From a virus: 43,554 nt of DNA. Below the pieces are notes generated by a model. It did not search any database, was not told where the DNA came from, and worked only from the letters and a program-made list of their open reading frames with translations. Of the stretch, positions 2,429 to 14,644 are shown one piece after another. How positions within the stretch are numbered: the stretch's first letter is position 1; every line of letters begins with the position of its first letter. Position numbers and translations under genes: made by a program. The stretch covers positions 1 to 43,554 of the IMG/VR virus record IMGVR_UViG_3300028920_000013; one strand, given 5' to 3'.

Positions 2429-2640
2429 TTGGAAAGAGCGCAACTGCCGAAGGGCGCATACCATAAGCCGAAAGCTACTGCCGGTTATCGTTCCGGTGAA
2501 TTAAAAACGGCACCAACTCATTATATAGGAACCGGGGTGAGTTGGGTGAAGAAGACATATATTGGATTTAGACGGCAACAAGACTTGTCCAATATATTTA
2601 CCCGAAATAGCCGTGACCGTTCCGAAAAGGTATAACTCAA
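2429..2640 (+). ncRNA. Candidate structured RNA with a pseudoknot
   Basis: This stretch is more GC-rich than its flanks and full of inverted repeats. CCAACTCA (2513-2520) pairs with TGAGTTGG (2538-2545). TATATTGGA (2558-2566) pairs with TCCAATATA (2588-2596), and its loop ACGGC (2572-2576) pairs with GCCGT (2610-2614), an H-type pseudoknot. A 68-codon frame (2429-2635) exists but would start at TTG without a ribosome site and resembles no protein I know. I therefore prefer an RNA. It does not match tmRNA, RNase P RNA or group I or II intron cores as I remember them. Confidence 0.4.
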
Positions 2641-2905
2641 CTGCTCTGCTAAAAAGGGGAAATACCATAATCAGTAGCAAATCCAAATATTACATCTAAT
2701 TTATATAAATTTTCACTTGCTGTTTTTGACGGTATAAGCTCACTGCATCTGCATTTCAGGGGAAGGTATAATTGACAAATAATTATATTTATGTTCTACC
2801 TATAAGTGATCCAAAAATACTCCCCGATATAGGGGGAGATATAAATATTTCCTAAAACCAAATTTCAAAGCTAGCACTACCCCGAATATGATTTTTGCTT
2901 TTACT
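2641..2905. other. Non-coding AT-rich spacer
   Basis: I see no convincing frame. A TATAAT at 2767 and a TTGACA at 2773 are present, but neither has a good partner element at the right distance. The stretch separates the candidate structured RNA from the tandem repeats of the presumed origin. Confidence 0.5.
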
Positions 2906-2958
2906 CTTGCCCTGTTTATTGTCCTTATCCTTGCCCTGTCCCTTATCCTTGCCCTATA
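2906..2958 (+). repeat. 18-bp tandem repeats (iteron-like)
   Basis: Two adjacent 18-bp units (2923-2940 and 2941-2958) share CCTTATCCTTGCCCT. A partial unit, CTTGCCCTGTTTA, precedes them from 2906, and TGTCCTTGTCCTATA follows at about 2988. Short direct repeats next to an AT-rich stretch and DnaA boxes resemble an origin with iterons. No initiator protein gene is evident, so the binding factor is unknown. Confidence 0.5.
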
Positions 2959-3052
2959 TTAAGGTATAAATCCAGTCTAGTCTTCTTTGTCCTTGTCCTA
3001 TAAAAAAGAAAAGAGAAAGTCAAGGTATCTCAATAAGGAAACTAAAAACATA

Positions 3053-3150
3053 TTGACAAACAATTGAATATATTGTTTAACTGGTATTTTATCCCCTGCT
3101 ATTTATCCACAGTTTATCCACTTTGTAGATTATTCACTTATAGTGTTTTT
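3053..3150. other. Candidate replication origin core
   Basis: This AT-rich stretch carries a perfect DnaA box TTATCCACA at 3103-3111, a one-mismatch box TTATCCACT at 3114-3122 and a looser TTATTCACT at about 3131. The tandem repeats lie just upstream at 2906-2958. The phage shows no replication initiator, helicase or polymerase, so opening by host DnaA is a sensible model. No origin activity can be shown from sequence alone. Confidence 0.45.
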
Positions 3151-3177
3151 ATAGCACTACTTTGTCCCTGTCTTTTT

Positions 3178-3200
3178 ATAGCTAATTTTAGCTATTTTTT
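3178..3200 (+). terminator. Weak intrinsic terminator before the early promoter
   Basis: ATAGCT (3178-3183) pairs with AGCTAT (3190-3195) and TTTTTT follows. The stem is AT-rich and therefore weak. It would shield the early promoter at 3217 from upstream read-through. Confidence 0.4.
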
Positions 3201-3216
3201 AATACCTATTTACCTA

Positions 3217-3245
3217 TTGACAATCTTTATATAATACTATATACT
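3217..3245 (+). promoter_or_regulatory. Main early promoter
   Basis: TTGACA (3217-3222), a 17-bp spacer and TATACT (3240-3245), with a start near 3252. It faces the early gene array and is followed by the first copy of the conserved leader (3266-3287). It is one of the best sigma70 matches in the window. Confidence 0.75.
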
Positions 3246-3265
3246 TAATAGTAGTTAAACATATT

Positions 3266-3287
3266 TAGTCCTTAACAATAAAACATT
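3266..3287 (+). repeat. Early leader, copy A
   Basis: TAGTCCTTAACAATA followed by AAACATT and ATG. This is the first copy of the leader found before most early genes. It has no Shine-Dalgarno sequence. Confidence 0.75.
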
Positions 3288-3473
3288 ATGCTAAAAGCAA
3301 TCATTATTTGTGCCGTCCTTGCCTTGACTTTAACCGCAGTTATCGTTGGTTATAACAGGCAAGAAATCAAAGAATGTTATCAATGGCAAAAACAAGCCAA
3401 GCAATACCCAAATTTTTACCTAACCGATTGGCAAGCTAAACAATGCCAACGTCACAACATAATCATTGATTAA
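3288..3473 (+). CDS. Small membrane protein, Cys/Trp-rich tail
   Basis: A 61-residue protein with one hydrophobic segment (residues 2-21), which may be a signal anchor or membrane span. A polar tail with spaced Cys, Trp and Gln follows (ECYQWQKQAKQYPNFYLTDW, then QAKQCQRHN). I have the impression of similar short proteins in Patescibacteria and their phages, but cannot confirm this. It is the first gene behind the early promoter, so it is probably made at once after infection. The function is unknown; a membrane-associated host-takeover or anti-defence role would be speculation. Confidence 0.65.
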   Translation: MLKAIIICAVLALTLTAVIVGYNRQEIKECYQWQKQAKQYPNFYLTDWQAKQCQRHNIIID

Positions 3474-3488
3474 AGATTGACTTCGGCG

Positions 3489-3542
3489 CCGGGCTTTTTG
3501 TCCCGGTTCCGACGCTAGTCCTTAACAATTAACTAAAAATGT
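3489..3542 (+). repeat. Stem-loop plus early leader, copy B
   Basis: CCGGG (3489-3493) pairs with CCCGG (3502-3506); the leader with the 16-nt core GTCCTTAACAATTAAC (3518-3533) follows, then TAAAAATGT and ATG at 3543. This copy is a perfect complement of 7369-7384. Confidence 0.8.
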
Positions 3543-3923
3543 ATGTATTTATCAAAACAACATTTTATTGACGTTCTAGACTCCGCCGGGTTTGACCAGT
3601 CAAATCTAAAAGAGTTTGACTACGCCGAACGTTTGAGTCCCGGGGCTTACTTGTTTAGTTCCGGTTCACATTTAGCCGTTATTTATCAATCAACCGTTGT
3701 ATTTTACGGTGAGATTATAAACGTTGACGGTAAACAGAAAAAAGTTATTAAATTAAACTCTGGCGGGTGGTTTACGGTTACCACTAAAAAATGGCAAAAT
3801 TACGCGCTTGACCTGTTTAATACCGGGTGGCATATTTACCAGAAAAATTTTAGCTGGTATATCACCGACGGCGACAAGTTCAACCGCGAATATACCGAAA
3901 ACGTCCTAACCTTGACCGTTTAG
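3543..3923 (+). CDS. Conserved-looking early protein, 126 aa
   Basis: A soluble protein of 126 residues, rich in Tyr, Phe and Trp, with an alternating beta-type pattern (SHLAVIYQSTVVFYGEII) and a C-terminal NTGWHIYQKNFSWYITDG stretch. It looks like a compact single domain of the kind found in many phage early regions. I do not recognise a catalytic motif and do not assign a function. The second of two nearby ATGs (3543) fits the spacing of the other leader copies. The base composition is richer in GC than in the later early genes, which suggests separate acquisition. Confidence 0.7.
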   Translation: MYLSKQHFIDVLDSAGFDQSNLKEFDYAERLSPGAYLFSSGSHLAVIYQSTVVFYGEIINVDGKQKKVIKLNSGGWFTVTTKKWQNYALDLFNTGWHIYQKNFSWYITDGDKFNREYTENVLTLTV

Positions 3924-3935
3924 GCTTAACCGTTG

Positions 3936-3985
3936 CCCCGGGTTCCCGGGGTTCCGGTTAGTCCTTAACAATAACAAAAAACATT
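3936..3985 (+). repeat. Stem-loop plus orphan early leader, copy C
   Basis: CCCCGGG (3936-3942), TT and CCCGGGG (3945-3951) form a very stable hairpin. The leader TTAGTCCTTAACAATAAC and AAAAAACATT follow. Where copies A and K have ATG, this one has ATC (3986-3988), and the frame after it closes after five codons, so the leader has no gene behind it. Confidence 0.75.
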
Positions 3986-4193
3986 ATCCGAATCGTTCCT
4001 TGATAAAATAACAAGGGTTAAACGGGTCAGCGATTAACTTCGCTACCTGTTGCCTGTCCTTATTTGTGCCAAAGGATATCCTAAAACTACTAACATAATT
4101 GGCGTAGTCAATAAGGGCAGACAATAGGTAATAACTAACTAAAAAACTATGGACAAAAAAATTAAATAACGCTAAAAGAATCGGCGCCAACAT
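3984..4193 (-). pseudogene. Reversed, probably decayed gene in an early cassette
   Basis: A 69-codon frame on the opposite strand fills almost exactly the coding slot between leader C and leader D. Its C-terminal half (FRISFGTNKDRQQVAKLIAD, then PFNPCYFIKERFG) reads like a genuine protein with phage-like codon use. Its N-terminal half is hydrophobic. A plus-strand copy of the leader end (TAACTAAAAAACTATGG, 4134-4152) followed by a six-codon frame MDKKIK overlaps it. The simplest reading is a gene body that was turned around and truncated, leaving leaders without genes. It could also be a real minus-strand gene, though it has no promoter. Confidence 0.35.
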
Positions 4194-4212
4194 TAAGAGA
4201 ACGGCGCTAAAA

Positions 4213-4237
4213 CCTTAACAATTAACTAAATAAAATT
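4213..4237 (+). repeat. Early leader, copy D
   Basis: CCTTAACAATTAAC followed by TAAATAAAATT and ATG at 4238. GC-rich GGCGC elements upstream (about 4182-4207) may form the stem of this cassette. Confidence 0.65.
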
Positions 4238-4441
4238 ATGGACAAAGAAAAACTAATTGACCACTATGTTAATTTATACCGACAACTATGGGGTAGTAAT
4301 TCTGGACTATGTACTGAAACACTAAAACAAATGGGGGAAAAAGAACTAAAAAAGGAAATTAAGGAAATGAAACAGCATATTAAAGACAAAAATCCTTATT
4401 TTCCTGCCTTTGAAACTTTTTACCAAAACAAATCTAAATAA
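4238..4441 (+). CDS. Small charged helical protein, 67 aa
   Basis: Lys- and Glu-rich, mainly helical protein (MDKEKLIDHYVNLYRQLWGS at the start) with no membrane segment. Residues 32-50 could form an amphipathic helix. The short peptide MDKKIK at 4150 resembles its first residues and may be a broken copy. No function is recognisable. It lies in the early array between leader D and a shortened leader before 4457, so it is probably co-expressed with both neighbours. Confidence 0.6.
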   Translation: MDKEKLIDHYVNLYRQLWGSNSGLCTETLKQMGEKELKKEIKEMKQHIKDKNPYFPAFETFYQNKSK

Positions 4442-4456
4442 TTAACTAAAAAAACT

Positions 4457-4624
4457 ATGTTATTAAAACAAGTTTATAAATGCGAAAATTGCCAAAAAGA
4501 TAACATTGATGTTTTGGAAATCTTCCCCGGCAATTTATGCCTTGAATGTTACGAAAAGAAAATGAATAAAATACCACTAGAGAAATTAGAAAAATCTGAC
4601 TTTAAAAAGGCAATCAATCTTTAA
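4457..4624 (+). CDS. Small zinc-ribbon protein, 55 aa
   Basis: The frame starts at ATG 4457 after AATTAACTAAAAAAACT, a shortened leader copy, and ends at TAA 4622-4624. Two Cys pairs, YKCENCQK (Cys9, Cys12) and NLCLECYE (Cys28, Cys31), are set for one zinc ion, as in small zinc ribbons. The rest is Lys-rich. Such small phage proteins often bind nucleic acid or a host protein, but no target can be named. Confidence 0.65.
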   Translation: MLLKQVYKCENCQKDNIDVLEIFPGNLCLECYEKKMNKIPLEKLEKSDFKKAINL

Positions 4625-4637
4625 GCATTGACGCTAG

Positions 4638-4701
4638 CCCCGGACGATCCGGGGACGGCGCTAGCGCTTAAGCTAGTCCTTAAAAATTAACTAATAAAAT
4701 T
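4638..4701 (+). repeat. Stem-loop plus early leader, copy F
   Basis: CCCCGGA-CGA-TCCGGGG (4638-4654), a second palindrome GCGCTAGCGC, then AGCTAGTCCTTAAAAATTAA and ATG at 4702. The stop codon upstream lies in TTTAAG, which can pair with CTTAA of the leader and bring the stop and next start together. Confidence 0.75.
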
Positions 4702-4884
4702 ATGGCAAAAATAGTATTTATTTTACCCGGCGGATTTTCAGAACCAGCAGAAGCAAATTTAGAAATGTTTGGTAAAAAATGGAATAATAAAAAAATAGAT
4801 AAATTAACAGCGAAATTTAAAAGCAATCAATATGTTATAATTTATCAAAAAGACGAAGGTAAAATATGGAAAAGAATTGATTAA
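4702..4884 (+). CDS. Small early protein, 60 aa
   Basis: A 60-residue basic protein with a beta-type start (MAKIVFILPGGFSEP) and a Lys/Asn-rich middle, ending KDEGKIWKRID. No membrane segment or metal site is visible. I do not recognise it. The gene has the full leader in front and a long GC-rich spacer behind, so it forms a self-contained cassette of the early array. Confidence 0.55.
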   Translation: MAKIVFILPGGFSEPAEANLEMFGKKWNNKKIDKLTAKFKSNQYVIIYQKDEGKIWKRID

Positions 4885-5001
4885 CTAACTTTAAGAATTG
4901 ACTAGACGGCGCTATTTGTGGAAGCCCTGACCGGTTACAACTTCTGCCAAGCGATTAACCGGGCGCCGTTTAGCTAGTCCTTAAAAATTAACTAAAAAAC
5001 T
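4885..5001 (+). repeat. Long stem-loop plus early leader, copy G
   Basis: ACGGCGC (about 4906) and GCGCCGT (about 4964) can pair across a 50-nt loop. The leader GCTAGTCCTTAAAAATTAAC, AAAAAACT and ATG at 5002 follow. The long loop is unlike the tight hairpins of the other copies, and I see no frame in it. Confidence 0.65.
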
Positions 5002-5223
5002 ATGGAATACAAAAAAGACGAAATAGCAAATGATCTATACGATCTAATAAAAGTTTGTTTTTTATCAGACAAACAGGTTGATAATTGGGCGAGATTATCA
5101 AGAAAACACGCTGAAATCTCAAAGCAAAATATGAAAAAGCATTTTGGTAGAAAGTATATTGAAGTAAATGGAAATAAAATAGTAATAGGAAAAAACAAAA
5201 AAACTACAATAACAATTAACTAA
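5002..5223 (+). CDS. Small basic early protein, 73 aa
   Basis: A Lys-rich 73-residue protein, helical in the first 55 residues (LYDLIKVCFLSDKQVDNWAR) with a short basic beta-like tail. Its charge suggests nucleic-acid contact, but no known motif is visible. Its stop is only six bases from the next start, and the end of its own coding sequence supplies the leader of the ArdA-like gene (ACAATTAACTAAAAAACT). The two genes are therefore translated from one message and probably coupled. Confidence 0.6.
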   Translation: MEYKKDEIANDLYDLIKVCFLSDKQVDNWARLSRKHAEISKQNMKKHFGRKYIEVNGNKIVIGKNKKTTITIN

Positions 5224-5229
5224 AAAACT

Positions 5230-5517
5230 ATGGAAGACAAAGAAAAATGGGAAGATCAAATTGATCAACACGGCGAAGACGCCGTCAATGCCTATATTGA
5301 AATCGTTGGAAAAGATTATGCCGAGCCTGACGACTTTGACGAAGCCTACCAAGGACAATGGGACAGCGACGAAGATTTTGTACAAAACTTGTTGGAAAAC
5401 ACTGAAACGATCCCGGCTGACTTGCCGGCTTATATCTATATTGACTGGGAAGCAACAGCCCGAGATGTAATGATGGACTACTCCGAAGACAATGGGCATT
5501 ATTTTAGGAACCTTTAA
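5230..5517 (+). CDS. ArdA-like antirestriction protein, short form
   Basis: A strongly acidic 95-residue protein. The C-terminal region DLPAYIYIDWEATARDVMMD, followed by YSEDNGHYFRNL, matches the end of ArdA proteins as I know them (Tyr/Asp-rich, a YxDWEA-RD segment, then a G-Y-F-R-like ending). ArdA mimics bent DNA and blocks type I restriction-modification enzymes. Full ArdA is about 165 residues, so this is roughly one C-terminal domain; phages with such short forms may keep only the DNA-mimic part. Early expression behind the 5002 gene suits a function needed as soon as DNA enters. The family call is good; activity of the short form is inferred. Confidence 0.7.
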   Translation: MEDKEKWEDQIDQHGEDAVNAYIEIVGKDYAEPDDFDEAYQGQWDSDEDFVQNLLENTETIPADLPAYIYIDWEATARDVMMDYSEDNGHYFRNL

Positions 5518-5529
5518 GCCCTGACGGTT

Positions 5530-5593
5530 CCCCGGATCAATTCCGGGGTTCCGCTAGTTCTTAAGCTAGACCTTAACAATTAACTAAAAAACT
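5530..5593 (+). repeat. Stem-loop plus early leader, copy I
   Basis: CCCCGGA-TCAAT-TCCGGGG (5530-5548), then GCTAGTTCTTAAGCTAGACC, TTAACAATTAAC and ATG at 5594. CTTAAG occurs twice here, as if part of a leader had been duplicated. Confidence 0.8.
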
Positions 5594-6259
5594 ATGGAAG
5601 ACGTATTGAAGACAATCAATTATAAAGGTTGTCAAATCAAGATCTACCAAGATTTTGACTGTCAAAGCCCGGACGAATGGGGTAATAACGCGCTTTTCTT
5701 AACCGGCTGGCACCAAAGAGAATTTTGGGTTAACCGGGACGGATTTATGCCTGAAGACCTAGAAGACGCTGATCGTCAAAAGGAAATCAAAAAAGACTTT
5801 TACGTCTTTATGCTTGACGCCTACATACACAGTGGCGTAGCCTTGTCACTGACTACCGAGGGAATGCAATGTCCTTGGGACACTAGCCACAATATAGGCG
5901 CCATTTTCGTCAAGAAGTCTGAAGCTAAAACTAGAAAAGAAGCTGAAAAGCTAGCCCGGGGCTTACTTGAAAACTGGAACGACGCATTGTCCGGGAACGT
6001 TTATGGCTTTGTTACTGAAGATAAGAACAGCGAAATCATTGACTCCTGTTGGGGTTTTTACGGTGATCCCGAAAAGTCAGGCTTGATTGATGAAGCAAAA
6101 TCGTCCATTGACTACTTCGTCAAGTCAACAAAACCGTTTACTGTCAATGTTGATATTGAAGTTTTGGCAAAAGATCCGGCTGACGCCAAAGACAAAGCTA
6201 GCAACTTGCTAGGTGGCAAGATCAAAAAGTTTTGGGTTGGTGAAGTTACAAAGGTTTAA
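5594..6259 (+). CDS. Conserved phage/plasmid early protein, 221 aa
   Basis: The largest protein of the early array. The middle part (DAYIHSGVALSLTTEGMQCP, WDTSHNIGAIFVKK) and the later part (ENWNDALSGNVYGFVTED, then DSCWGFYGD) resemble a family I have seen often in phages and plasmids of Gram-positive bacteria, whose function is not established. The last 45 residues (KPFTVNVDIEVLAKDPADAK) look like a separate small beta domain that is also present at the end of the next gene. It is acidic overall. A role in host interaction or anti-defence would fit its place beside the ArdA-like gene, but this is inference. Confidence 0.7.
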   Translation: MEDVLKTINYKGCQIKIYQDFDCQSPDEWGNNALFLTGWHQREFWVNRDGFMPEDLEDADRQKEIKKDFYVFMLDAYIHSGVALSLTTEGMQCPWDTSHNIGAIFVKKSEAKTRKEAEKLARGLLENWNDALSGNVYGFVTEDKNSEIIDSCWGFYGDPEKSGLIDEAKSSIDYFVKSTKPFTVNVDIEVLAKDPADAKDKASNLLGGKIKKFWVGEVTKV

Positions 6260-6321
6260 GACCTGACCTTTACCTCGGACGCCGGGGTTTAGGCTAGTCC
6301 TTAAAAATTAACTAAAAAAGT
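6260..6321 (+). repeat. Stem-loop plus early leader, copy J
   Basis: CCTCGG-ACG-CCGGGG (6273-6287, one G-U pair), then GGCTAGTCCTTAAAAATTAA, CTAAAAAAGT and ATG at 6322. TTTAAG at the stop codon is complementary to CTTAA in the leader. Confidence 0.8.
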
Positions 6322-6672
6322 ATGATCAAAGAAAACCTTTGTGATAACTGCGGTAAATATCCGGTTACCACAAAAGACTGTCGGGAAGATGATTGTGGCG
6401 GGTATTCTAAAGTCTATTCTTGTCGGTATTGCGCCGGGCTTAATGACAAATGGCATTATAGAGTCCGGGCTGAAAACCTTGATCCAAAAGAAGTTTTAGG
6501 TGTGGAAGATGAAGCAGACACTTGGACAATTACCGTAAAGATGACTGTCTTTGCCGGGGATATGGACAAGGACAACGTAATAAGCAACGCCGAAAGCCTA
6601 CTGCCTGACTTGCTAGACGGCACTGACTTTACTGGAATTGCGGTTATTGACGCTAAAAGAGATGAAGTTTAA
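6322..6672 (+). CDS. Cys-rich early protein, 116 aa
   Basis: The N-terminal 45 residues contain Cys pairs in ENLCDNCGKYP and VYSCRYCAG with further Cys between (DCREDDC), which should form one or two zinc sites. The C-terminal part (WTITVKMTVFAGDMDKDNV, ending TGIAVIDAKRDEV) is an acidic alpha/beta domain resembling the end of the preceding 221-residue protein. It looks like a zinc-binding module joined to a domain shared by neighbouring early proteins. The function is unknown. Confidence 0.65.
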   Translation: MIKENLCDNCGKYPVTTKDCREDDCGGYSKVYSCRYCAGLNDKWHYRVRAENLDPKEVLGVEDEADTWTITVKMTVFAGDMDKDNVISNAESLLPDLLDGTDFTGIAVIDAKRDEV

Positions 6673-6734
6673 GTCCTGACGTTTACCTCGGGATCCGGGG
6701 TTTACGCTAGTCCTTAATAAATAACAAAAACATT
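6673..6734 (+). repeat. Stem-loop plus early leader, copy K
   Basis: CCTCGG-GAT-CCGGGG (6686-6700), then GCTAGTCCTTAATAAATAAC, AAAAACATT and ATG at 6735. It shares the CTGACGTTTACCTCGG arm with copy J, so these two copies are the closest pair. Confidence 0.8.
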
Positions 6735-6917
6735 ATGAAAAAAGTTTTTAGAGTCCACTATTATTTTGACGGATCCGGTTATGTTGATATTGAAGCCGAG
6801 TCAAAAGAACAAGCCGAAGAAAGATTTTTTGATGGTGATTTTGAAAATGAAGAAGAATGGGGCGATCAATACAACATTGAAAACGTCACCGAGCCATTAG
6901 AAGAAAAAGCACACTAA
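6735..6917 (+). CDS. Small acidic protein, possibly DpnD/PcfM-like
   Basis: A 60-residue protein with the pattern VFRVHYYFDGSGYVDIEAES followed by KEQAEERF and an acidic tail. A short beta hairpin with an 'ESKEQAEE' helix is typical of small DpnD/PcfM-type proteins of phages and mobile elements. That family has no settled function. It is the last gene behind a leader of the standard type before the next promoter. Confidence 0.5.
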   Translation: MKKVFRVHYYFDGSGYVDIEAESKEQAEERFFDGDFENEEEWGDQYNIENVTEPLEEKAH

Positions 6918-6927
6918 CGAAATGAGC

Positions 6928-7024
6928 TGGGGCTTAATTGTCCCGGCTTGTTAAAAAGAAAAGAGAATCAGCGCTAGAAAAACCGCTAAATTAAGTACTA
7001 TAAGTCAATAATATTGGGTTTTTC
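6928..7024. terminator. Hairpins closing the first early unit
   Basis: AGCTGGG and CCCGGCT (about 6929-6953) form a GC-rich stem. Further on, GAAAAACC (6977-6984) pairs perfectly with GGTTTTTC (7017-7024), leaving U-rich and A-rich flanks. One or both probably end transcription from the 3217 promoter just before the new promoter at 7055. Confidence 0.45.
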
Positions 7025-7054
7025 AAATGTGACTAAACTGTTGATAAAATATAC

Positions 7055-7083
7055 TTGACAACACTATATAATTAGATTAAAAT
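7055..7083 (+). promoter_or_regulatory. Second early promoter
   Basis: TTGACA (7055-7060), a 17-bp spacer and TAAAAT (7078-7083), with a start near 7090. It is followed by a shortened leader, TCTAATCCTTAAC and TAAAAAACT, before ATG at 7113. Confidence 0.75.
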
Positions 7084-7112
7084 AATAGTATCTAATCCTT
7101 AACTAAAAAACT

Positions 7113-7298
7113 ATGTTCAACAAAAAAAAGACTTCAAAACCTAATATCCAAATCTATTGTAAGGTTAGTGTCAACCACACAATAGATCAAGAAGACTTTT
7201 ATTCTGTCAAAACCTTTGACGACTTCAAGTCGGCTTTGAAATATCTTGAAGAAAAGGAAAGTATTTTTCCGGCAATGCCGGAAGACAAGCAATCTTAA
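7113..7298 (+). CDS. Small early protein, 61 aa
   Basis: Basic N-terminus (FNKKKTSKPN) followed by a small alpha/beta pattern (IQIYCKVSVNHTIDQEDFYS) and a Lys/Glu helix. It is not recognised. Its reading frame ends inside a perfect 12-bp hairpin (7283-7311), with the TAA in the loop. The 3' region carries the antisense copy of the early leader, so this message may be as important for its RNA tail as for its protein. Confidence 0.55.
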   Translation: MFNKKKTSKPNIQIYCKVSVNHTIDQEDFYSVKTFDDFKSALKYLEEKESIFPAMPEDKQS

Positions 7299-7311
7299 TG
7301 ATTGCTTGTCT
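7283..7311 (+). terminator. 12-bp hairpin with the stop codon in its loop
   Basis: AGACAAGCAATC (7283-7294), loop TTAAT and GATTGCTTGTCT (7300-7311). The TAA of the 7113 gene lies in the loop. There is no U-run, so it may protect the 3' end or be a processing site and need not terminate transcription. Confidence 0.6.
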
Positions 7312-7402
7312 AGCCTGACGTTAAAAGACTTGCGATCGCGAGCAACATAAATCAGTCGCATAGTTTATGTTAATTGTTAAGGACAATCTCTTGTCGGGCT
7401 AG
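7310..7402 (+). ncRNA. Multi-hairpin RNA with an antisense copy of the early leader
   Basis: An outer stem CTAGCC/GGCTAG (7310-7315 with 7397-7402) encloses a CTTGCG/CGCGAG hairpin, AACATAAA/TTTATGTT (7344-7351 with 7364-7371) and ATTGT-TAAGG-ACAAT (7373-7387). Bases 7369-7384 (GTTAATTGTTAAGGAC) are the exact reverse complement of the leader core at 3518-3533 and pair with the other leader copies with few mismatches. The loop TAAGG would be free to meet CCTTA of the leaders. It is probably transcribed from the 7055 promoter as a 3' UTR. Confidence 0.5.
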
Positions 7403-7431
7403 GCAAATAATTATTAAGTAGATTATGAAAT

Positions 7432-7641
7432 ATGAAAACGATCAGCGTAAAAACCCGGGCTGAAAAAGTAAAGTTTATTGCTGAAGAACTATTAGCAAAT
7501 CCTTATCACCCAGAAAAAGACAATTTAAGCGACGTTATGGCTGATGTTGAGCAGTGGAGTGACGACGACATTGATTTATTTTTGTTTCAAATGCTGGACG
7601 GTGATATTAGTCAAGACGAAATTGCTAATGAACGAAATTAA
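7432..7641 (+). CDS. Small acidic helical protein, 69 aa
   Basis: Begins MKTISVKTRAEKVKFIAEEL and ends with an acidic segment (WSDDDIDLFLFQMLDGDISQ). Helices predominate and there is no metal site or membrane span. It is not recognised. The conserved early leader is missing here, and base composition becomes AT-rich from this gene on. The stop is one base from the chosen start of the nuclease gene. Confidence 0.55.
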   Translation: MKTISVKTRAEKVKFIAEELLANPYHPEKDNLSDVMADVEQWSDDDIDLFLFQMLDGDISQDEIANERN

Positions 7642-7642
7642 A

Positions 7643-8179
7643 ATGTTTAATGTTGAACCAACAACCGAGCAAAAAAAATATGCTTGGCAACAGGTTACTG
7701 ATTATAATTTTGGTAAAAGAGGTATTTTTGACGGCAAAAAAAAACAACAATATGCTGGTATTTTAGCTCAAACAGTAATGGCAGATAATATCGAATACCC
7801 AAGACCTAATGGAAAAGACGGATTTGACAATGGAATTGACTTTATTATTCATAATATAAAATGTGATTTAAAAGTTACCGGTAGAGAATATTATATGAAA
7901 AATCATTATTCTCATAACATTGTTGCTAGTCAATTAAGCTATGAAACAGAAATTTACATACTAGGATCAGTTAATTACAAAACTGGAATAATAACTTACT
8001 GTGGTTTAATTAGAAAAGACCAAATGAAAAGATATTTTCACCCAGCCGGAACAATTAGAACAAGAGATGACGGCACAACATTTACTTACAAAGTAGCGTC
8101 TTATGACGTTCCCCAGTCAGATTTACACCAAATAAAAAATTGGCTTGATATAATTTGGGGAGTTGATCAAATATTATAA
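7643..8179 (+). CDS. PD-(D/E)XK-like nuclease
   Basis: A 178-residue protein with the order GFDNGIDFIIHN (Asp66) and then CDLKV (Asp75, Lys77), the D-x(n)-DxK core of the PD-(D/E)XK nuclease fold. A preceding helix (GILAQTVMADN) is in the right place for the first core helix. The fold includes restriction enzymes, resolvases and recombination exonucleases, and I cannot tell which this is. Start at ATG 7643, one base after the previous stop; an in-frame ATG at 7628 overlapping the upstream gene is also possible. It may degrade host DNA or help recombination along with the RusA-like protein. Confidence 0.6.
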   Translation: MFNVEPTTEQKKYAWQQVTDYNFGKRGIFDGKKKQQYAGILAQTVMADNIEYPRPNGKDGFDNGIDFIIHNIKCDLKVTGREYYMKNHYSHNIVASQLSYETEIYILGSVNYKTGIITYCGLIRKDQMKRYFHPAGTIRTRDDGTTFTYKVASYDVPQSDLHQIKNWLDIIWGVDQIL

Positions 8180-8194
8180 ATAAACTTTAATAGT

Positions 8195-8527
8195 ATGACT
8201 AAAACCTATTCACTACAACGAACAATCAATCTTAAACGGATAACAGGGATTGATATGTTTGAAAACACTAAATTTACGGTCGAAGGTTGCGCTTCACCTA
8301 AAGAAGCTGAAAAAGAGATTGAAGATTGGGTTGAAGATTATATTACCCGAAAGAAAAAAGAATTTGAAGCCAAGAAAAATGAAATTCTAGAAGCTAAAAA
8401 AAATAAACCACCTTTTGAAGGCAATGAGTTTAATAAAAAAGACTCAATCGTTAGCGAAGCACAACGCGCCAGACATTTAGCTAAAGGTGGAAAAGATTAC
8501 GAACCTAAAAAAACAATTAAAATCTAA
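8195..8527 (+). CDS. Lys/Glu-rich early protein, 110 aa
   Basis: The N-terminal 50 residues look like a small beta domain (SLQRTINLKRITGIDMFENT). A long charged helix (residues 50-80) and a basic end (KGGKDYEPKKTIKI) follow. It is not recognised. Its last 20 bases and the following start region are duplicated at 8920-8952, as if the next gene had been inserted with a short duplication. Confidence 0.55.
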   Translation: MTKTYSLQRTINLKRITGIDMFENTKFTVEGCASPKEAEKEIEDWVEDYITRKKKEFEAKKNEILEAKKNKPPFEGNEFNKKDSIVSEAQRARHLAKGGKDYEPKKTIKI

Positions 8528-8537
8528 AATTATGTTC
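8505..8537 (+). repeat. 33-bp direct repeat, left copy
   Basis: Identical to 8920-8952. It covers the end of the 8195 gene (KKTIKI and stop) and a start codon with ATGTTC. After this copy the frame closes after ten codons (MFLVGQENIK), so it is a dead start. Confidence 0.8.
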
Positions 8538-8610
8538 CTAGTAGGTCAAGAAAATATTAAATAAATAACTAACCCTATAAAGTAAATAATCTAACTAATA
8601 AATAGAGAGT

Positions 8611-8862
8611 ATGTATTTTCCAAGTCAAAAAGACTTATTAAAAAATAGTTTTCCAAGATTATCAGAAGCTGAATTAAATTTGATTGACAGACAATGGACA
8701 CTTCAATTCAAAAGAAATGATTGTAAGTGGTGGCAAGTGATTAAAAAGATAAAATTAAATTATCAACTTAATAAATATAAAGATATTATTTTCGGAATTG
8801 GAATAGAAACAGCTTTAACTGATTTAGAAAAATGTGGAATAATTAAACAATCTAACCAATAA
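8611..8862 (+). CDS. Small protein inside a duplicated segment, 83 aa
   Basis: Starts MYFPSQKDLLKNSFPRLSEA, with GAGAG just before ATG as a weak ribosome site. It is mostly helical with several Trp and Lys and no membrane segment. It is not recognised. It lies between two 33-bp direct repeats (8505 and 8920), so it may have entered by a duplication or recombination event that split the normal junction between the 8195 and 8947 genes. Confidence 0.55.
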   Translation: MYFPSQKDLLKNSFPRLSEAELNLIDRQWTLQFKRNDCKWWQVIKKIKLNYQLNKYKDIIFGIGIETALTDLEKCGIIKQSNQ

Positions 8863-8919
8863 ATAGAGATATAAAAGATGATAAAATAAAATCTAATCTT
8901 GAGGAAAATAAATTTGAAG

Positions 8920-8952
8920 CTAAAAAAACAATTAAAATCTAAAATTATGTTC
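8920..8952 (+). repeat. 33-bp direct repeat, right copy
   Basis: Identical to 8505-8537. Here the start codon leads into the intact 8947 gene. Confidence 0.8.
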
Positions 8953-9297
8953 AACAAAGACTTATTCATTAAATACCAAGAGTTCACAAGTCAGATTAAA
9001 GAATTAGAAAGTCAAAAGAAAATTATTGCTGATGAAATTTTATCTGAAATGAAAAAGATTAACGCTGATAAAGTTCAATCTGACTTCGGTAGCTTTTCAG
9101 TTGCCACTAGAAAAACTTATGAATTTATTGCCAGCGCCAAAATGAAAATTGATAGCGCTAAAAATAAAGTCAAAGATTTAGAAGCTGAAGCTATTAGGGA
9201 AGGATTAGCCAAAGAAAAGGTAACTGAATCAATTAGATTCACACCTAAAAGATCAAAATCTGGATCTGGAGATGAAGCTATTGACAATTTAATATAG
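8947..9297 (+). CDS. Coiled-coil early protein, 116 aa
   Basis: Residues 5-50 form a heptad-like helix (FIKYQEFTSQIKELESQKKI). A beta pair around DKVQSDFGSFSVATRKTYEF follows, then a second helix and a basic Ser/Gly tail. This layout resembles small phage proteins of the Gp157/Siphovirus type that bind DNA or a recombinase, but I cannot place it firmly. I chose ATG 8947 over a TTG 48 bases upstream because it follows the AAAATT context seen in other genes here. It ends at the predicted promoter of the 9317 RNA. Confidence 0.6.
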   Translation: MFNKDLFIKYQEFTSQIKELESQKKIIADEILSEMKKINADKVQSDFGSFSVATRKTYEFIASAKMKIDSAKNKVKDLEAEAIREGLAKEKVTESIRFTPKRSKSGSGDEAIDNLI

Positions 9298-9310
9298 ATT
9301 GTAATATCAT
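9281..9310 (+). promoter_or_regulatory. Promoter for the 9317 RNA
   Basis: TTGACA (9281-9286), an 18-bp spacer and TATCAT (9305-9310). It lies in the last codons of the 8947 gene. The predicted start near 9317 is the first base of a structured RNA. Confidence 0.45.
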
Positions 9311-9316
9311 TAATAA

Positions 9317-9421
9317 ATAGAGGAGCAAATGTAATAATAGTCTGCGGGTAACTATCCGTTAGTTGTCTGCGGACTTTTCCAAGAAAACCGTTACAAGTTT
9401 GCTCCTTAAGACGGTTTTTTT
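9317..9421 (+). ncRNA. Candidate structured RNA with terminator, about 105 nt
   Basis: AGGAGCAAA (9321-9329) near the 5' end pairs perfectly with TTTGCTCCT (9398-9406). The latter sits in the loop of the terminator stem AAAACCGT (9384-9391) with ACGGTTTT (9411-9418) followed by TTT, so the two stems form a pseudoknot or compete. GTCTGCGG occurs twice between them. AGGAG is followed by ATGTAA, a start directly followed by a stop, so nothing is translated. No gene follows within 360 bases. It may be a small regulatory RNA; the family is not recognised. Confidence 0.5.
9384..9421 (+). terminator. Intrinsic terminator of the 9317 RNA
   Basis: An 8-bp stem AAAACCGT/ACGGTTTT with a 19-nt loop and a T-run of seven (9415-9421). 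Confidence 0.65.
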
Positions 9422-9434
9422 GGTATATACAATG

Positions 9435-9580
9435 TATATTCAGCCGGGATCAGTAACTCACGGCTATAAATATGAGTGGCTGAAAAGGTCAAATGATTAT
9501 CTCACTCCCCCCATTAGTAAGTAAAATCGCCAAATTTATTTATTAATGGAGTGAGTGAATTACCCGGCACATTTGACTGA
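9435..9580 (+). ncRNA. Candidate structured region with crossing stems
   Basis: Perfect inverted repeats are nested and crossed here. TTCAGCC (9439-9445) pairs with GGCTGAA (9478-9484). GCCGGG (9443-9448) pairs with CCCGGC (9563-9568). GTCAAATG (9488-9495) pairs with CATTTGAC (9570-9577), and CTCACTCC (9501-9508) with GGAGTGAG (9548-9555). The first two compete for three bases, and the second crosses the third. There is no open frame. It could be an RNA or a DNA structure or binding site. Confidence 0.45.
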
Positions 9581-9786
9581 TAACAGTTAAAAATAGCTAA
9601 TCTTGGGTAGGAAAGGCTAGGATTAACAGGAATATACTAAATAAACTAGCTTTTTCCTAGCTTCTATGGGGGTAGTATGTCGGGTTGTGGATAAATTAAC
9701 TATATAGTTTATATAATTTATGCTATAATACCTAATAGATATAAGATCCATTGCGATCAAATAATAATTAATGAAATGAAATCATT
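9581..9786 (+). promoter_or_regulatory. Leader and promoter region of the SSB-like gene
   Basis: No gene is visible. CTAGGA (about 9635) can pair with TCCTAG (about 9655), a DnaA box TGTGGATAA lies at 9686-9694 on the opposite strand, and an extended -10 element TGCTATAAT (9721-9729) lacks a good -35. RNA from it would start near 9736 and read the 9787 gene. The DnaA box just upstream may regulate it. Confidence 0.5.
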
Positions 9787-10182
9787 ATGCCAAATGAAAC
9801 AGCCCAACAAATGTTGGAAGACAAAAAGAAGCGATCTCCTTTCTTGACTTTATCTGACGGTGAAGAACAAGAAGGTAAAATCTTGGAGATCAAAAACATC
9901 ACTAAAGCAGGTTTTAGTGGTGAAGAAGAAGATTTTTTGAGAGTTGTTCTTGAATGTAACATTGAAGGTGTCGGTGTTATTAAAAAGAACTTTGATAACT
10001 CCTCAAAGAAATGGTTAGAAGAAGTAGTCAAAAAAGAAATTGACACCGGTGATATTATTAAGATTAGCCGGGAAGGTGAAAGGACCAAGACTACTTATAC
10101 TATTGATATAATCAGTAAGGGTGATGGAAATGAACCGGCTCAATCAACAGATGAGATTAAACCAGAAGATATACCAATGTAA
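9787..10182 (+). CDS. Single-stranded-DNA-binding-like protein, 131 aa
   Basis: A beta-rich protein (GEEQEGKILEIKNITKAGFS, LRVVLECNIEGVGVIKKNF, TYTIDIISKGD) that would suit an OB fold, with a flexible acidic tail ending EIKPEDIPM. An acidic tail with a terminal hydrophobic tip is the docking peptide of bacterial SSBs and of many phage ssDNA-binding proteins. Such a protein would protect single strands during replication and recruit host factors, fitting a phage without its own polymerase. It lies just upstream of the 3D-domain gene and near the RusA-like gene. Similarity is structural reasoning, not a clear family match. Confidence 0.5.
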   Translation: MPNETAQQMLEDKKKRSPFLTLSDGEEQEGKILEIKNITKAGFSGEEEDFLRVVLECNIEGVGVIKKNFDNSSKKWLEEVVKKEIDTGDIIKISREGERTKTTYTIDIISKGDGNEPAQSTDEIKPEDIPM

Positions 10183-10183
10183 T

Positions 10184-10597
10184 ATGAAGTCATCAGTAGG
10201 GGGATTGATAATTATAATTTTGGCGACGCTGATTGGTGTTGCAGTTATCAATTCCTCTTACTATGACGCAATAACTTTTGTTGATAGTCCTAAAGTAAAA
10301 ATTCCAAAAATAAAATATGTTATATTATTATCACAAATCATTTATGGATACTCATCAACACCTGATCAAACAGATTCAACACCTTTCACAACAGCTAACG
10401 GAAAAAGAGTCAGAAGAGGTATTATTGCTAATAACTGCTATGATTATGGAACAAAAATACGAATTAAAGATAGGACATATATAGTAGAAGACAGAATGAA
10501 TGCTAGGTATGGTTGTGACGTATTTGACATTTGGTTTACAACTAGACAGGAAGCTAAAAATTGGGGAAAACAAATATTAGATATTAAAATTTATTAA
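10184..10597 (+). CDS. Membrane-anchored 3D-domain (RlpA-like) protein
   Basis: Residues 7-22 are a membrane anchor or signal segment. The outer domain has the signature YGYSSTPDQTDSTPFTTANG, then RRGIIANNCYDYGTKIRI, VEDRMNARYGC and FDIWFTTRQEAKNWG, the double-psi beta-barrel '3D' domain with its conserved Asp residues (Asp103, Asp112, Asp115). Relatives act on or bind peptidoglycan (MltA and RlpA type). The exact wording of the motif is what I recall from Patescibacteria cell-envelope proteins, a hint of the host. Start at 10184, one base after the SSB-like stop. It could help lysis or remodel the host wall, though it lies with early genes. Confidence 0.75.
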   Translation: MKSSVGGLIIIILATLIGVAVINSSYYDAITFVDSPKVKIPKIKYVILLSQIIYGYSSTPDQTDSTPFTTANGKRVRRGIIANNCYDYGTKIRIKDRTYIVEDRMNARYGCDVFDIWFTTRQEAKNWGKQILDIKIY

Positions 10598-10618
10598 TTA
10601 TATAAAAATCAAATAAAA

Positions 10619-11041
10619 ATGGGTAAAAAATCAAGAGTTAATTTAAAATTAGGGCAAGTATGTATTGGAGTCCGGGAACCAAAGTGTCGTCGGATACCTC
10701 ATTCACCTAATAAAAAAATGCACTGGGCTGAACAAGCTAAATGGAAAAGCGCTTGGGAAGAAGAAGTTGCCTACGCTTGGTTAGCAGTTAAAAATAATTA
10801 TTCTCAACAATGGAAGTCAATGCCATATAAAAGATCATTACTACAAATATTTGTTTTTTCTATAAAACCTCAAGATGAAGATAATTCTTATGCTTCAATG
10901 AAAGGAATAATTGACGGTTTAAAAAAAATTGGTTTAATAGTTGATGATGATCCGGCTCACTTACATATTAAATTAATCAATGTGCCAGTTAAAACCCGGG
11001 ACGCTGAACATATTGAACTATCATTAGAAATGAAACAATAA
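10619..11041 (+). CDS. rusA: RusA-family Holliday-junction resolvase
   Basis: A 140-residue protein with the RusA pattern: KPQDEDNSYASMKGIIDGLK (Asp86, Asp88, Lys95, Asp99) followed by GLIVDDDPAHLHI (Asp109-111). RusA cleaves four-way junctions symmetrically after dimerisation, and phages use it to resolve branched intermediates before packaging. The length and basic N-terminus fit the family. It is the clearest recombination enzyme in the window and would act together with the SSB-like protein and perhaps the PD-(D/E)XK-like nuclease. Confidence 0.85.
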   Translation: MGKKSRVNLKLGQVCIGVREPKCRRIPHSPNKKMHWAEQAKWKSAWEEEVAYAWLAVKNNYSQQWKSMPYKRSLLQIFVFSIKPQDEDNSYASMKGIIDGLKKIGLIVDDDPAHLHIKLINVPVKTRDAEHIELSLEMKQ

Positions 11042-11047
11042 TATTTT

Positions 11048-11200
11048 ATGCGTCAGTTTAAAGGAAAAGGAAACTTGGTAAAGGAAAGTAATATTATTTT
11101 TAACCAGTATAATAAAAAACAAAATAAAGAAAATGCTAAAAAGTTTGATGAAGAATTAAAAAGACAAAGAGAATTAATTAAAATACATTTAAGTCAATAA
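11048..11200 (+). CDS. Small basic protein, 50 aa
   Basis: The frame from ATG 11048 to TAA 11198 reads MRQFKGKGNLVKESNIIFNQ and then a Lys/Gln/Glu helix. It is packed between the RusA gene (six bases away) and the next gene (one base away), with codon use like its neighbours, so it is probably translated. It is highly basic and may bind nucleic acid. No family is recognised. Confidence 0.55.
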   Translation: MRQFKGKGNLVKESNIIFNQYNKKQNKENAKKFDEELKRQRELIKIHLSQ

Positions 11201-11201
11201 A

Positions 11202-11453
11202 ATGAATCAGATAATAAAAGATTTAATTCAGAAAAAAGTCTGGGATAAAGTAACTGAAATTTCTGAAAACGAGTATAAAGGACATATAAACTGCTTATTA
11301 GCTGACGAATATTATCCTTGGCTTACACTTGGAATAATGATTAATAATGAAAAAAGATATTTTAAATTTAAAGCTAATGATGGACCTGAAACTAGATTAC
11401 TTCATCAAGCAATAGAAAAAAATTTTTATGGCGATAAAATCAAGTCAACCTAA
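11202..11453 (+). CDS. Unknown early protein, 83 aa
   Basis: Helical N-terminus (MNQIIKDLIQKKVWDKVTEI), a beta pair (YPWLTLGIMINNEKRYFKFK) and a short C-terminal helix: a compact alpha/beta protein without obvious metal or membrane features. Its end overlaps the next gene by 26 nt, so translation is probably coupled. The function is unknown. Confidence 0.6.
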   Translation: MNQIIKDLIQKKVWDKVTEISENEYKGHINCLLADEYYPWLTLGIMINNEKRYFKFKANDGPETRLLHQAIEKNFYGDKIKST

Positions 11454-11697
11454 TACCGATCTTAATTCAGTTTTATTAAATATGATTAAAAAAATGGGTT
11501 TTGATAATATCCCAATAAGTTTTTTTTCTTTAAAAGAAAACTTAAGTGATGGCACTATGGCTAATTTTCAATTAAGTGTTAATGAAAAACAAATTGATGA
11601 ACATATTTTTTCTTTACGAAATGAAATTGAAGATTTTAAAAATTTAAAAGAAAAAGCCAAATCATTAAAAATTTTAGATAATGATAAATTATTATAA
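11428..11697 (+). CDS. Unknown early protein, 89 aa
   Basis: Begins MAIKSSQPNTDLNSVLLNMI within the end of the previous gene and ends with a Lys/Glu helix (SLRNEIEDFKNLKEKAKSLK) of coiled-coil type. There are no Cys or membrane segments. It is not recognised. The overlap suggests that it is made in step with the 83-residue protein and may be its partner. Confidence 0.55.
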   Translation: MAIKSSQPNTDLNSVLLNMIKKMGFDNIPISFFSLKENLSDGTMANFQLSVNEKQIDEHIFSLRNEIEDFKNLKEKAKSLKILDNDKLL

Positions 11698-11711
11698 TTA
11701 ATTAAAATATT

Positions 11712-11951
11712 ATGACAGAACAAAAAAATATAGGAACTCCTGATGTTATACTGGACGAAAGTAAATACCGTAGAACTAGAAAAGGTAAACGTGGCAATCC
11801 ACGACCTAAAATTAATACTGAACCATTGGTAATTTTAATACCACGTAATATTAAAGACAGATTGGTTAAGTATTGTGATGTATCTGGTGATTCACAGGCT
11901 CACGCCACAAGAAAAGCATTAAGAATGTTTCTAATTAATCAAGGATTTTAA
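11712..11951 (+). CDS. Ribbon-helix-helix-like DNA-binding protein
   Basis: A basic N-terminal arm (residues 15-36, ESKYRRTRKGKRGNPRPK) is followed by EPLVILIPRNIKDRLVKYCD and a helix that includes SQAHATRKALRMFL. The order strand, helix, turn and helix with 'IPRNIKDRL' matches CopG/Arc-type ribbon-helix-helix regulators. It is a good candidate for the regulator of early or late promoters. It directly precedes the glycosyltransferase gene, two bases away. Confidence 0.6.
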   Translation: MTEQKNIGTPDVILDESKYRRTRKGKRGNPRPKINTEPLVILIPRNIKDRLVKYCDVSGDSQAHATRKALRMFLINQGF

Positions 11952-11953
11952 TT

Positions 11954-13264
11954 ATGAAAAAAAACATAGCAATAATTACTACCTTTAGATCTGCTGATGA
12001 AGCCTATTCTTTAAATCGAGTAGTAATTGATCAAATCAAAATGTTTACTAGGCACGGCTATAATTTAACAATAGTTGTTGCTAAAGGTTTTGTACCTACT
12101 GGGTGGTATAAACACCCAAATATAAAATGCGTTGAAATTTCTGATGTTCCTGTATCTAATACAGTTGAAATTGATGAAACATTTGAAAAAGATGTTGATA
12201 AATTAATATCTGAATTTTTAGATATATTAAAAGATGTTGATGTAGCTTTAACTCACGATATAATTTATCAACCAGCCGGAATGAAACATAATGCAGCATT
12301 AAGATATTTAGCATTAAATAGAAAAATTAAAACAAGATTTTTACATTGGATTCATTCAGCAACAGCGCCGACAGTAATGCAAGACTTAAGAGGTGGTGGT
12401 CAGAAATTTCTTGATTCATTTAAACTACCATTTCCTAATTCGTTTTACATTGCTTTTAATGAGTTTTCAACACCAAGAATAGCCGGGTGGTTTGGAGTAG
12501 AAGAATCACAAGTAAAATATGTTCCTCACCCCCACGATTTTTATGAAGGTAAAGATGAATTGACAATAAAAATTGCTGATAAAGTAAAATTACTTCAAAA
12601 AGATATTACTTGTATGTATCCTTGCCGACTTGATCGTGGTAAACAACCTCATTTAGTATTAGAAACAATTGCTCAATCAAAGAAATTAGGTAAATCAGTA
12701 GCATTAATATTTGCTGATTTTCATTCAACTGCCGGAGATAAAGTTAAATATAGAAATCAAATGAAAGAAAGAGCAATTGATCTTGGCTTGAATGAAAATG
12801 ATTTATTATTCTTATCAGAATTTGAACTTCCAGAATGTCAAAAATATCGTTATGAAGTTCCTCATAAAGTAATTCAAGAATTATTTAGCTTGACTAATAC
12901 GTTTATTCTTCCAAGTAAATCTGAAACATACTCTTTAGTTGCTCAAGAAGCTATTGCTAATAGAAATTTTGTTATATTAAATTATGATTTTCCACCATTT
13001 AGATCTATTTATGGTGACTCTGCATTTTATAGGCAATATAGTTCAGATATAGCAATTGATGGATTTGACGGTCAAACTAATACTGAATATAATAATCCTG
13101 AAGATTATCATAAAGCTACTGCACAATATATAAACTATGTTCAGGAGAATACTAGAGCATTAAAGTTGTTCAATAAAATAAGAAAAACAAGAAACATTGA
13201 TTATGTCTTCAAAAATAATATTGAACCATTACTTTATGCTGATCCAAATAAATTTAATTATTAA
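11954..13264 (+). CDS. Glycosyltransferase, GT4/GT-B type
   Basis: A 436-residue protein of GT-B layout. The N-terminal domain starts KKNIAIITTFRSADEAYSLN. The C-terminal domain has CMYPCRLDRGKQPHLVLETI and FILPSKSETYSLVAQEAIAN, the nucleotide-sugar binding site with the conserved E-x7-E-like element (SETYSLVAQE). It should transfer a sugar from an activated donor. It is the only glycosyltransferase in the rightward region; the others are late. It could modify phage DNA, a host receptor or a virion part. Nothing here shows the acceptor, and no modified-nucleotide pathway is visible. Confidence 0.85.
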   Translation: MKKNIAIITTFRSADEAYSLNRVVIDQIKMFTRHGYNLTIVVAKGFVPTGWYKHPNIKCVEISDVPVSNTVEIDETFEKDVDKLISEFLDILKDVDVALTHDIIYQPAGMKHNAALRYLALNRKIKTRFLHWIHSATAPTVMQDLRGGGQKFLDSFKLPFPNSFYIAFNEFSTPRIAGWFGVEESQVKYVPHPHDFYEGKDELTIKIADKVKLLQKDITCMYPCRLDRGKQPHLVLETIAQSKKLGKSVALIFADFHSTAGDKVKYRNQMKERAIDLGLNENDLLFLSEFELPECQKYRYEVPHKVIQELFSLTNTFILPSKSETYSLVAQEAIANRNFVILNYDFPPFRSIYGDSAFYRQYSSDIAIDGFDGQTNTEYNNPEDYHKATAQYINYVQENTRALKLFNKIRKTRNIDYVFKNNIEPLLYADPNKFNY

Positions 13265-13274
13265 CTAAAAAATT

Positions 13275-13454
13275 ATGGAACCAAAAGAAACTACTACTCC
13301 TAAATTAAAACAAATTTTTAGTGAAGCAATTATCACTCCAGTTAAAAATGGATTTATTGTAACATTTCAACCTTCAATTGGAAATAAAAGTGTTTACATT
13401 GCAAAAACATTAGCTGAAGCTAAAACATTATTAGAAAAATTATTAATTAAATAA
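13275..13454 (+). CDS. Small protein, 59 aa
   Basis: From ATG 13275, after TTAACTAAAAAATT, a leader end resembling the early array. It reads MEPKETTTPKLKQIFSEAII and then a small beta-alpha unit (GFIVTFQPSIGNKSVYIAKT). Such units occur in many small phage proteins of unknown role. Spacing to both neighbours is tight. Confidence 0.55.
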   Translation: MEPKETTTPKLKQIFSEAIITPVKNGFIVTFQPSIGNKSVYIAKTLAEAKTLLEKLLIK

Positions 13455-13458
13455 AATT

Positions 13459-13623: not shown

Positions 13624-13627
13624 AATT

Positions 13628-13894: not shown

Positions 13895-13898
13895 TATT

Positions 13899-14288: not shown

Positions 14289-14311
14289 GGAAATAATCAT
14301 AAATAAAAATT

Positions 14312-14638: not shown

Positions 14639-14644
14639 AGTAAA

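Follow-up and report, generated by a model that had tools for sequence, protein, structure and literature searches.

Why should the same hairpin and leader sequences recur between the small genes at the head of a phage genome, and what do they do for the genes that they separate? This question is raised by an array of ten open reading frames (ORFs; 3288–6917, + strand) that lies ahead of the first non-structural gene group in IMG/VR virus record IMGVR_UViG_3300028920_000013, which was analyzed over its whole length of 43,554 nucleotides (nt; hereafter the window). The window corresponds to a complete, circular phage genome of 43,427 bp (its first 127 bases reappear at its end), with a G+C content of 32%, genes for a portal and a major capsid protein, and a large terminase readable across the window ends; the host is probably a tiny, ultra-reduced bacterium. 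The reading that we favor, with a probability of about 0.45, is that the repeated element is an RNA cassette punctuating a single early polycistronic mRNA, most likely as a processing hairpin of the ribonuclease III (RNase III) type joined to a start leader.

Searching the window with the leader core, TAGTCCTTAACAATTAAC, at up to three mismatches resulted in 10 matches where 0.17 were expected, nine of them on the + strand, all within 3266–6725, and one on the − strand at 7369. The start part of the leader, AATTAACTAAAAAACTATG, gave nine matches at the same threshold (0.21 expected), seven of which fall within 3527–7115. The leader, which can also be written TAGTCCTTAA...ATG, is A-rich and ends at the next ATG, and the 3' arm of the hairpin (GCTAGTCCTTAA) runs into it. 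Ungapped matches at 21–23 of 23 positions, all on the + strand like the copies that follow, precede the ORFs starting at 3543 (leader at 3519–3542, overlapping the 3' arm of the preceding hairpin), 5002 (4975–5001), 5230 (5206–5229, containing the stop codon of ORF 5002), 5594 (5567–5593), and 6322 (6295–6321, with the core in the hairpin 3' arm). The match is 18 of 23 positions ahead of ORF 6735 (6708–6734), appears after a shift ahead of ORFs 4238 (4209–4237), 4457 (4432–4456, overlapping the end of ORF 4238), and 4702 (4674–4701), and is confined to the core ahead of ORF 3288, where the first copy (3266–3287) would form a promoter-proximal 5' untranslated region. At the junctions 4441/4457 and 5223/5230 the leader is present and the hairpin absent. 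The statement of the initial annotation that most genes from 3288 to 7113 carry this leader holds in the main, with partial copies ahead of 3288, 4457, 5230, and 7113 and a copy at 3959–3982 that no plus-strand ORF follows. Another partial copy (4122–4151) is followed only by a very short ORF; since neither of these two copies leads a proper gene, they suggest gene loss, of which they are likely remnants. Between them lies a long inverted repeat (4040–4135, z-score −6.09 as RNA) with a minus-strand ORF (3984–4193), perhaps an inserted element or a small RNA.

A shared hairpin plan was found at seven junctions. The 5' arm starts on the upstream stop codon (TT-TAA-G-NN-YTGA), so that the plan runs TT-TAA-G, 2 nt, YTG, an A mismatch, three to four pairs, a 2x2 loop, and about seven G+C-rich pairs, and the 3' side mirrors it as GCTAG-NN-CTTAA. 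Named by the end of the upstream ORF, the hairpins on the + strand are c3473 (3467–3531, stop codon 3471–3473, z −3.72), c3923 (3918–3969, stop codon TAG at 3921–3923, z −5.04), c4624 (4620–4672, stop codon 4622–4624, z −4.85, followed by a second CTAG-CTTAA copy), c4884 (4890–4984, z −3.36), c5517 (5513–5565, stop codon 5515–5517, z −5.30), c6259 (6255–6305, stop codon 6257–6259, z −3.08), and c6672 (6668–6718, stop codon 6670–6672, z −3.27), with c3473, c3923, and c4884 being variants of the plan. The stop codon lies within the 5' arm in six of the seven and immediately before the arm in c4884. These z-scores (−3.08 to −5.30) refer to dinucleotide shuffles, of which 0–2 of 200 folded as well in each of the seven cases. 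Not counting the outward extensions of c3473 and c6259, the arms measure 23–25 nt in all seven hairpins (26 nt for the 3' arm of c3473) despite their differing interiors, with c4884 combining 23-nt arms with a 50-nt apical part, and at most long junctions the hairpin ends 11–29 nt ahead of the next ATG. The five tight stems (3935, 4638, 5530, 6272, and 6685) and two related ones (3488 and about 4902) listed in the initial annotation lie where it had placed them, and the pairing that it proposed between TTTAAG at stop codons and CTTAA of the leader is real and larger than claimed, the hairpins extending out to the upstream stop codon. Among junctions that leave 20 nt or more between genes, taken from a hand-made gene list with spans cut at 140 nt and compared with 100 shuffles, all nine between 3473 and 7432 fold at z ≤ −2.25, versus three of ten elsewhere in the genome. 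One structured span outside the array is a 490-nt gap (9297–9787), the first 140 nt of which fold at z −4.57 and which contains a 16-bp hairpin (9339–9375).

In the alignment of five trimmed copies, from which c3473 and c4884 were omitted because their interiors do not align, pairing extends over 97.8% of cells; five of 18 pairs are changed on both sides, double-changed cells number 8 versus 2.5 in shuffles, and shifting the pairing partner lowers pairing to 24–58%. The inner stem varies in sequence and keeps its pairing, and it is in the outer arms that the sequence is conserved. These compensating changes support the structure but stop short of proof, because the copies share descent and the structure was derived from the same copies. 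A covariance model built from the five trimmed copies also finds c3473, which was not part of its training set (E-value 0.024); it misses c4884 and finds nothing further on the + strand of the window. A search of positions 2500–15000 against Rfam at E ≤ 1 resulted in no match to a known RNA family. The palindromes might instead act as DNA operators that bind a dimeric phage regulator, as the conserved outer inverted arms and the similar folding energies of both strands would allow, but the conserved arms lie anywhere from about 26 to 70 nt apart, which argues against a fixed-phase dimer site, the inner stem stays paired, and the cassettes contain no promoter for a regulator to act on. We consider an operator very improbable.

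The sole strong sigma70-like promoter ahead of the array (TTGACA-17-TATACT, 3217–3245, + strand) scores 11 of 12, as does a second one (TTGACA-17-TAAAAT, 7055–7083, + strand), and promoter-like sites overall are no commoner than in shuffles. Across nine internal junctions the best sigma70-like score is 7–9 of 12; a promoter in each cassette was rejected on this comparison, which bears out the absence of one in the initial annotation. Intrinsic terminators were also rejected, as the hairpins have no T-tract and none of the seven is terminator-like on either strand. With one strong promoter upstream, none in the cassettes, and no terminator-like hairpin, the ten ORFs are therefore most simply read as one transcription unit. 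A repeated cassette of stem-loop and leader with no promoter of its own also points to common control at the level of RNA or translation, which had been one of the earlier suggestions. The array ends in a hairpin of a different type, likewise without a T-tract (6921–6952, + strand, z −4.90). Farther downstream, a very large hairpin (7286–7424, z −5.58) begins on the ORF 7113 stop codon and contains in its loop the antisense leader copy (7369–7386, − strand).

No DNA relative of the first 20,000 bases of the window was found among 50,697 phage records. A portal search identified the contig of a relative, L009 (portal 42% identical), and a capsid search identified a phage contig (L019/L022; capsid 60% identical) in a metagenome-assembled genome (MAG) labeled Candidatus Paceibacterota, G001; this assignment rests on the binning of the relative, not of the window phage. 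Alignments of portal, capsid, and terminase for more relatives returned only L009, the short contig L018, and L019, and no genome with a relative beyond G001 was found among 247 of its order. L022 has three hairpins between stop codon and leader (4646–4702, 5018–5074, and 5691–5762; z −7.66, −8.75, and −7.49), the outer arms of which are conserved and the inner stems variable, and L009 has one (z −7.15). The leaders of both relatives (AAAGGTCG..ATG) and their hairpin arms differ from those of the window. Looked for in other genomes, the element thus recurs as a plan that is common, at the sequence level, to the window and its nearest relatives L009 and L022, while its own sequence does not: the covariance model, run over 76,647 bases of six relatives, gave as its best match the first L022 hairpin, which is not significant (E 0.47), and the window leader patterns had no matches in viral and genome contigs. 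An AAGGTCG leader also stands before second-group genes of L022 (9124, 9459, 10137, and 12352), where no such hairpin was seen. Upstream of its early promoter, L009 carries TTATAGCTCTTAAT in three copies as well as an 8-nt tandem array (2301–2349 and 2383–2438), perhaps as a replication or regulatory region.

These features can be joined in a tentative scheme. Host RNA polymerase would start at 3217 and transcribe the ORFs from 3288 to 6917, presumably early. At most long junctions a rod spanning roughly two helical turns would form in the transcript from the stop codon onward, and host RNase III or another double-strand-specific nuclease may bind or cut this rod, as happens at T7 early sites. 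Each ORF would thereby acquire a 3' end closed by a fold and, on its 5' side, a short A-rich leader resembling the one ahead of the first gene, and this leader may load ribosomes without a clear Shine-Dalgarno sequence. The cassettes have probably spread by duplication together with genes. Processing combined with a leader is favored because the arrangement, a two-turn rod on the stop codon with a short leader behind it in a presumably early transcript, matches the geometry of T7 early RNase III sites. Several observations weigh against the scheme. The internal loops are symmetric, unlike those of T7 sites, the sequence conservation of the outer arms exceeds the need of a pure double-stranded RNA nuclease, and folding indicates that the hairpin does not raise the accessibility of the leader. 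The five aligned copies are related by descent, so their counts are not independent, and RNAalifold returned no pair for an untrimmed, misaligned seven-row alignment. For c4624 and c5517, folding with more flanking sequence yields a competing structure, similar in energy, in which the outer stem is disrupted. Strand preference is weak, with 16 G-U pairs on the + strand versus 11 on the − strand and similar energies, and the partial MAG G001 of the relative's host yielded no RNase III.

The main rival is a hairpin that stays uncut and serves only as a translation spacer, a 3'-end stabilizer, or a coupling switch, in which a ribosome at the stop codon would cover the 5' arm and free the GTCCTTAA core in the 3' arm. 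The position of the stop codon in the 5' arm of six of the seven copies would suit such a switch, as would the leader core in the 3' arm of five of the seven (c3473, c3923, c4884, c6259, and c6672) and the conservation in the outer arms. In c4624 and c5517, however, the core need not be hidden, since the hairpin is followed by another copy that is free, and in L022 the leader core lies outside the hairpin. Predicted leader accessibility shows no systematic change (up in two, about equal in two, and down in two of six cases), and a role of the hairpin in insulating the leader is likewise unsupported by these predictions. We regard an uncut hairpin as somewhat unlikely and retain processing with a start leader as the working interpretation.

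The ORFs of the array, all on the + strand, begin with a small membrane protein of 61 amino acids (aa; 3288–3473; homologue in L009 at 917–1129, − strand, 41%) and a 126-aa protein with a profile match to Kyano_Gp96/phrog_554 (3543–3923). These are followed by ORFs of 67 aa (4238–4441), 55 aa (4457–4624, a CxxC-type small protein), 60 aa (4702–4884), and 73 aa (5002–5223), and by a partial ArdA antirestriction-like protein of 95 aa (5230–5517; PF07275, E 1.2e-8) that covers positions 75–144 of the 155 in the family profile and is without its N-terminal part. The remaining three are a 221-aa member of phrog_6186, a family of unknown function (5594–6259), a 116-aa CxxC-containing protein (6322–6672), and a 60-aa protein weakly similar to DpnD/PcfM (6735–6917; E 0.028, under the cut-off). 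Elsewhere, this 43-kb phage carries two glycosyltransferases and a nucleotide-sugar epimerase-like gene (11954–13264, 20506–21498, and 31758–32516).

Unlike small ORFs with repeated borders could also indicate a recombination module, in which the repeats are sites of gene gain, loss, and shuffling as in the PeSLs of phage T4 or integron attC sites. The leader remnants at 3959 and 4122 would then record losses, and the homologue of ORF 3288, first in the window array and sixth in L009, has a different place. L009 and L022 have no early gene match though their terminases are 66–68% identical. The relatives are too distant, however, for any shared breakpoint to be aligned; a stretch shared by L009 and L022 before unlike genes was rejected as a breakpoint because its score of 20.0 is not significant, 40 shuffles reaching up to 20.5. 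The scanned proteins, which did not include every ORF, contained no recombinase of the tyrosine or serine type and no transposase, no GTTRRRY core of attC was seen, and homologous recombination does not require compensating changes in a stem. On balance, a recombination module appears improbable.

The initial annotation had also allowed that the leader might be only a common ribosome-binding context of the host, and this is half borne out: a leader of this kind is a host context in the relative, and for the window leader no enrichment was found in the hosts searched. The pattern AAAGGTCG-N18-45-AWWATG has 15 matches in 300 kb of G001 versus none for the reversed pattern; eight lie in the phage contig and seven, at six distinct sites, in other contigs. 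Host genes behind this leader in G001 encode a peroxiredoxin, an RRM protein, and a KhpA-type KH protein, and a looser match precedes a mechanosensitive channel gene. Since the AAAGGTCG leader thus stands before host genes of the same MAG, the leader of the MAG phage, as judged by its motif, is a host-type leader. Three of six AAGGTCG sites lead an ORF in five host stretches (L028–L032), the other five of the ten stretches having been picked for their hits. In a set of 116 genomes from the phylum, motif counts exceed those of the control mainly in G001, G045 (7 versus 0), and G063 (6 versus 0), and in many others control matches are as numerous as motif matches. AAAGGTCG upstream of ATG therefore reads as a lineage leader motif of some genomes, including G045 and G063, which belong to the order of G001. 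The window leader is not enriched over its reversed control in 379, 119, or 145 genomes; within the 379, three have single matches at three mismatches, and single reversed-control matches also occur. That the window leader is nothing but host context, with the hairpins incidental, would fit the counts in G001, G045, and G063 and the host-type leader of L022, but the window leader lacks such enrichment in the hosts searched, its core is confined to the array and one antisense copy, and the hairpins are structured and recur in relatives, making this explanation very improbable. As for the nuclease, 36 of 40 genomes from the order to which G001 belongs encode the RNase III domain PF14622; the assignment of G001 as host concerns the relative and not the window phage.

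A broader proposal, which we put forward as rather unlikely, is that phages of Patescibacteria carry a host-tuned punctuation of mRNA, in which a leader type of the host lineage is copied before each early cistron and combined with a processing hairpin anchored on the stop codon, so that one transcript would yield many host-like messages. The plan would be kept, and the leader and hairpin sequences replaced, from phage to phage. If this is correct, a phage whose hosts belong to a scarcely studied group of bacteria would handle early expression in the manner of T7, with RNA hairpins replacing many promoters, and phage leaders would be adapted to the host. AAAGGTCG upstream of ATG offers a testable leader motif for some Paceibacterota, a group for which little is known of how translation starts, and leader type may be a means of linking phages to hosts. 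A literature search found nothing on leaders or phages of Patescibacteria, which does not itself prove that such work is absent.

Six junctions of phage T7, R0.3–R1.3, which we take to be RNase III sites, were folded for comparison; the early RNAs of T7 are reportedly cut from large precursors by ribonuclease III. R0.5, used as the yardstick, has arms of 23 and 24 nt; its 5' arm contains the gene 0.4 stop codon, and the next ATG follows at a distance of 16 nt. The arms of R0.3, R1, and R1.3 are longer, and in the spans folded R1.1 formed arms of only 10 bp and R0.7 no hairpin. The window resembles T7 in having hairpins between presumably early genes behind one upstream promoter, and resembles R0.5 in the rod of about two turns (20–25 bp) with arms of 23–25 nt, two of the window copies having an alternative fold. 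T7-type RNase III sites have an asymmetric internal loop at the cut, whereas the loops of c3923, c4624, c5517, c6259, and c6672 are symmetric. Also unlike the T7 sites, the outer arms of the window are conserved together with the leader, and processing in the window is a prediction only. The T7 hairpins R0.5 and R1.3 (1425–1483 and 6395–6470 of L038) contain AAGGTCG, probably by chance; this string is also the leader core in L022 and its host.

Integron attC sites form an imperfect hairpin after the stop codon of each ORF, variable inside and conserved at its ends (RYYYAAC / GTTRRRY), and function with an integrase. The window hairpins share the position after stop codons, the variable interior, and the conserved ends, but these ends, read by eye, do not fit, and no integrase was found in the scanned proteins, which were not all of the ORFs. 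The T4 PeSLs, reportedly treated by Arbiol in 2010 and Comeau in 2014, are the likeness drawn in the initial annotation; it extends to the repeated stem-loop cassettes and is limited because PeSLs carry an early promoter. They are described as repeated cassettes of early promoter and stem-loop between small early genes, for which shuffling was proposed (PMC4503421). Measured against that account, the window has repeated stem-loop cassettes between small early genes and lacks a promoter in each copy and a T-tract.

Among the literature examined, the nearest described elements are the SAS and ESAS of cluster K mycobacteriophages. SAS is a short repeat beside start codons of non-structural genes, of unknown function, that resembles GGGATAGGAGCCC and has an AGGAG Shine-Dalgarno core 3–7 nt from the start (PMC3203893). 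About half of the copies have an imperfect inverted repeat upstream; the elements occur at wide junctions, and the consensus of the inverted repeat differs between subclusters (PMC3203893, PMC11373665, PMC12699233); the ESAS of Adephagia contains a SigA-like promoter (PMC11373665). The window shares with SAS/ESAS the placement of a repeat beside start codons and of an imperfect inverted repeat ahead of it, but its leaders have no AGGAG core and its cassettes, at best 7–9 of 12, no SigA-like promoter, and they are therefore not members of SAS/ESAS. The sequence family of the cassette is new, and its plan resembles known phage devices.

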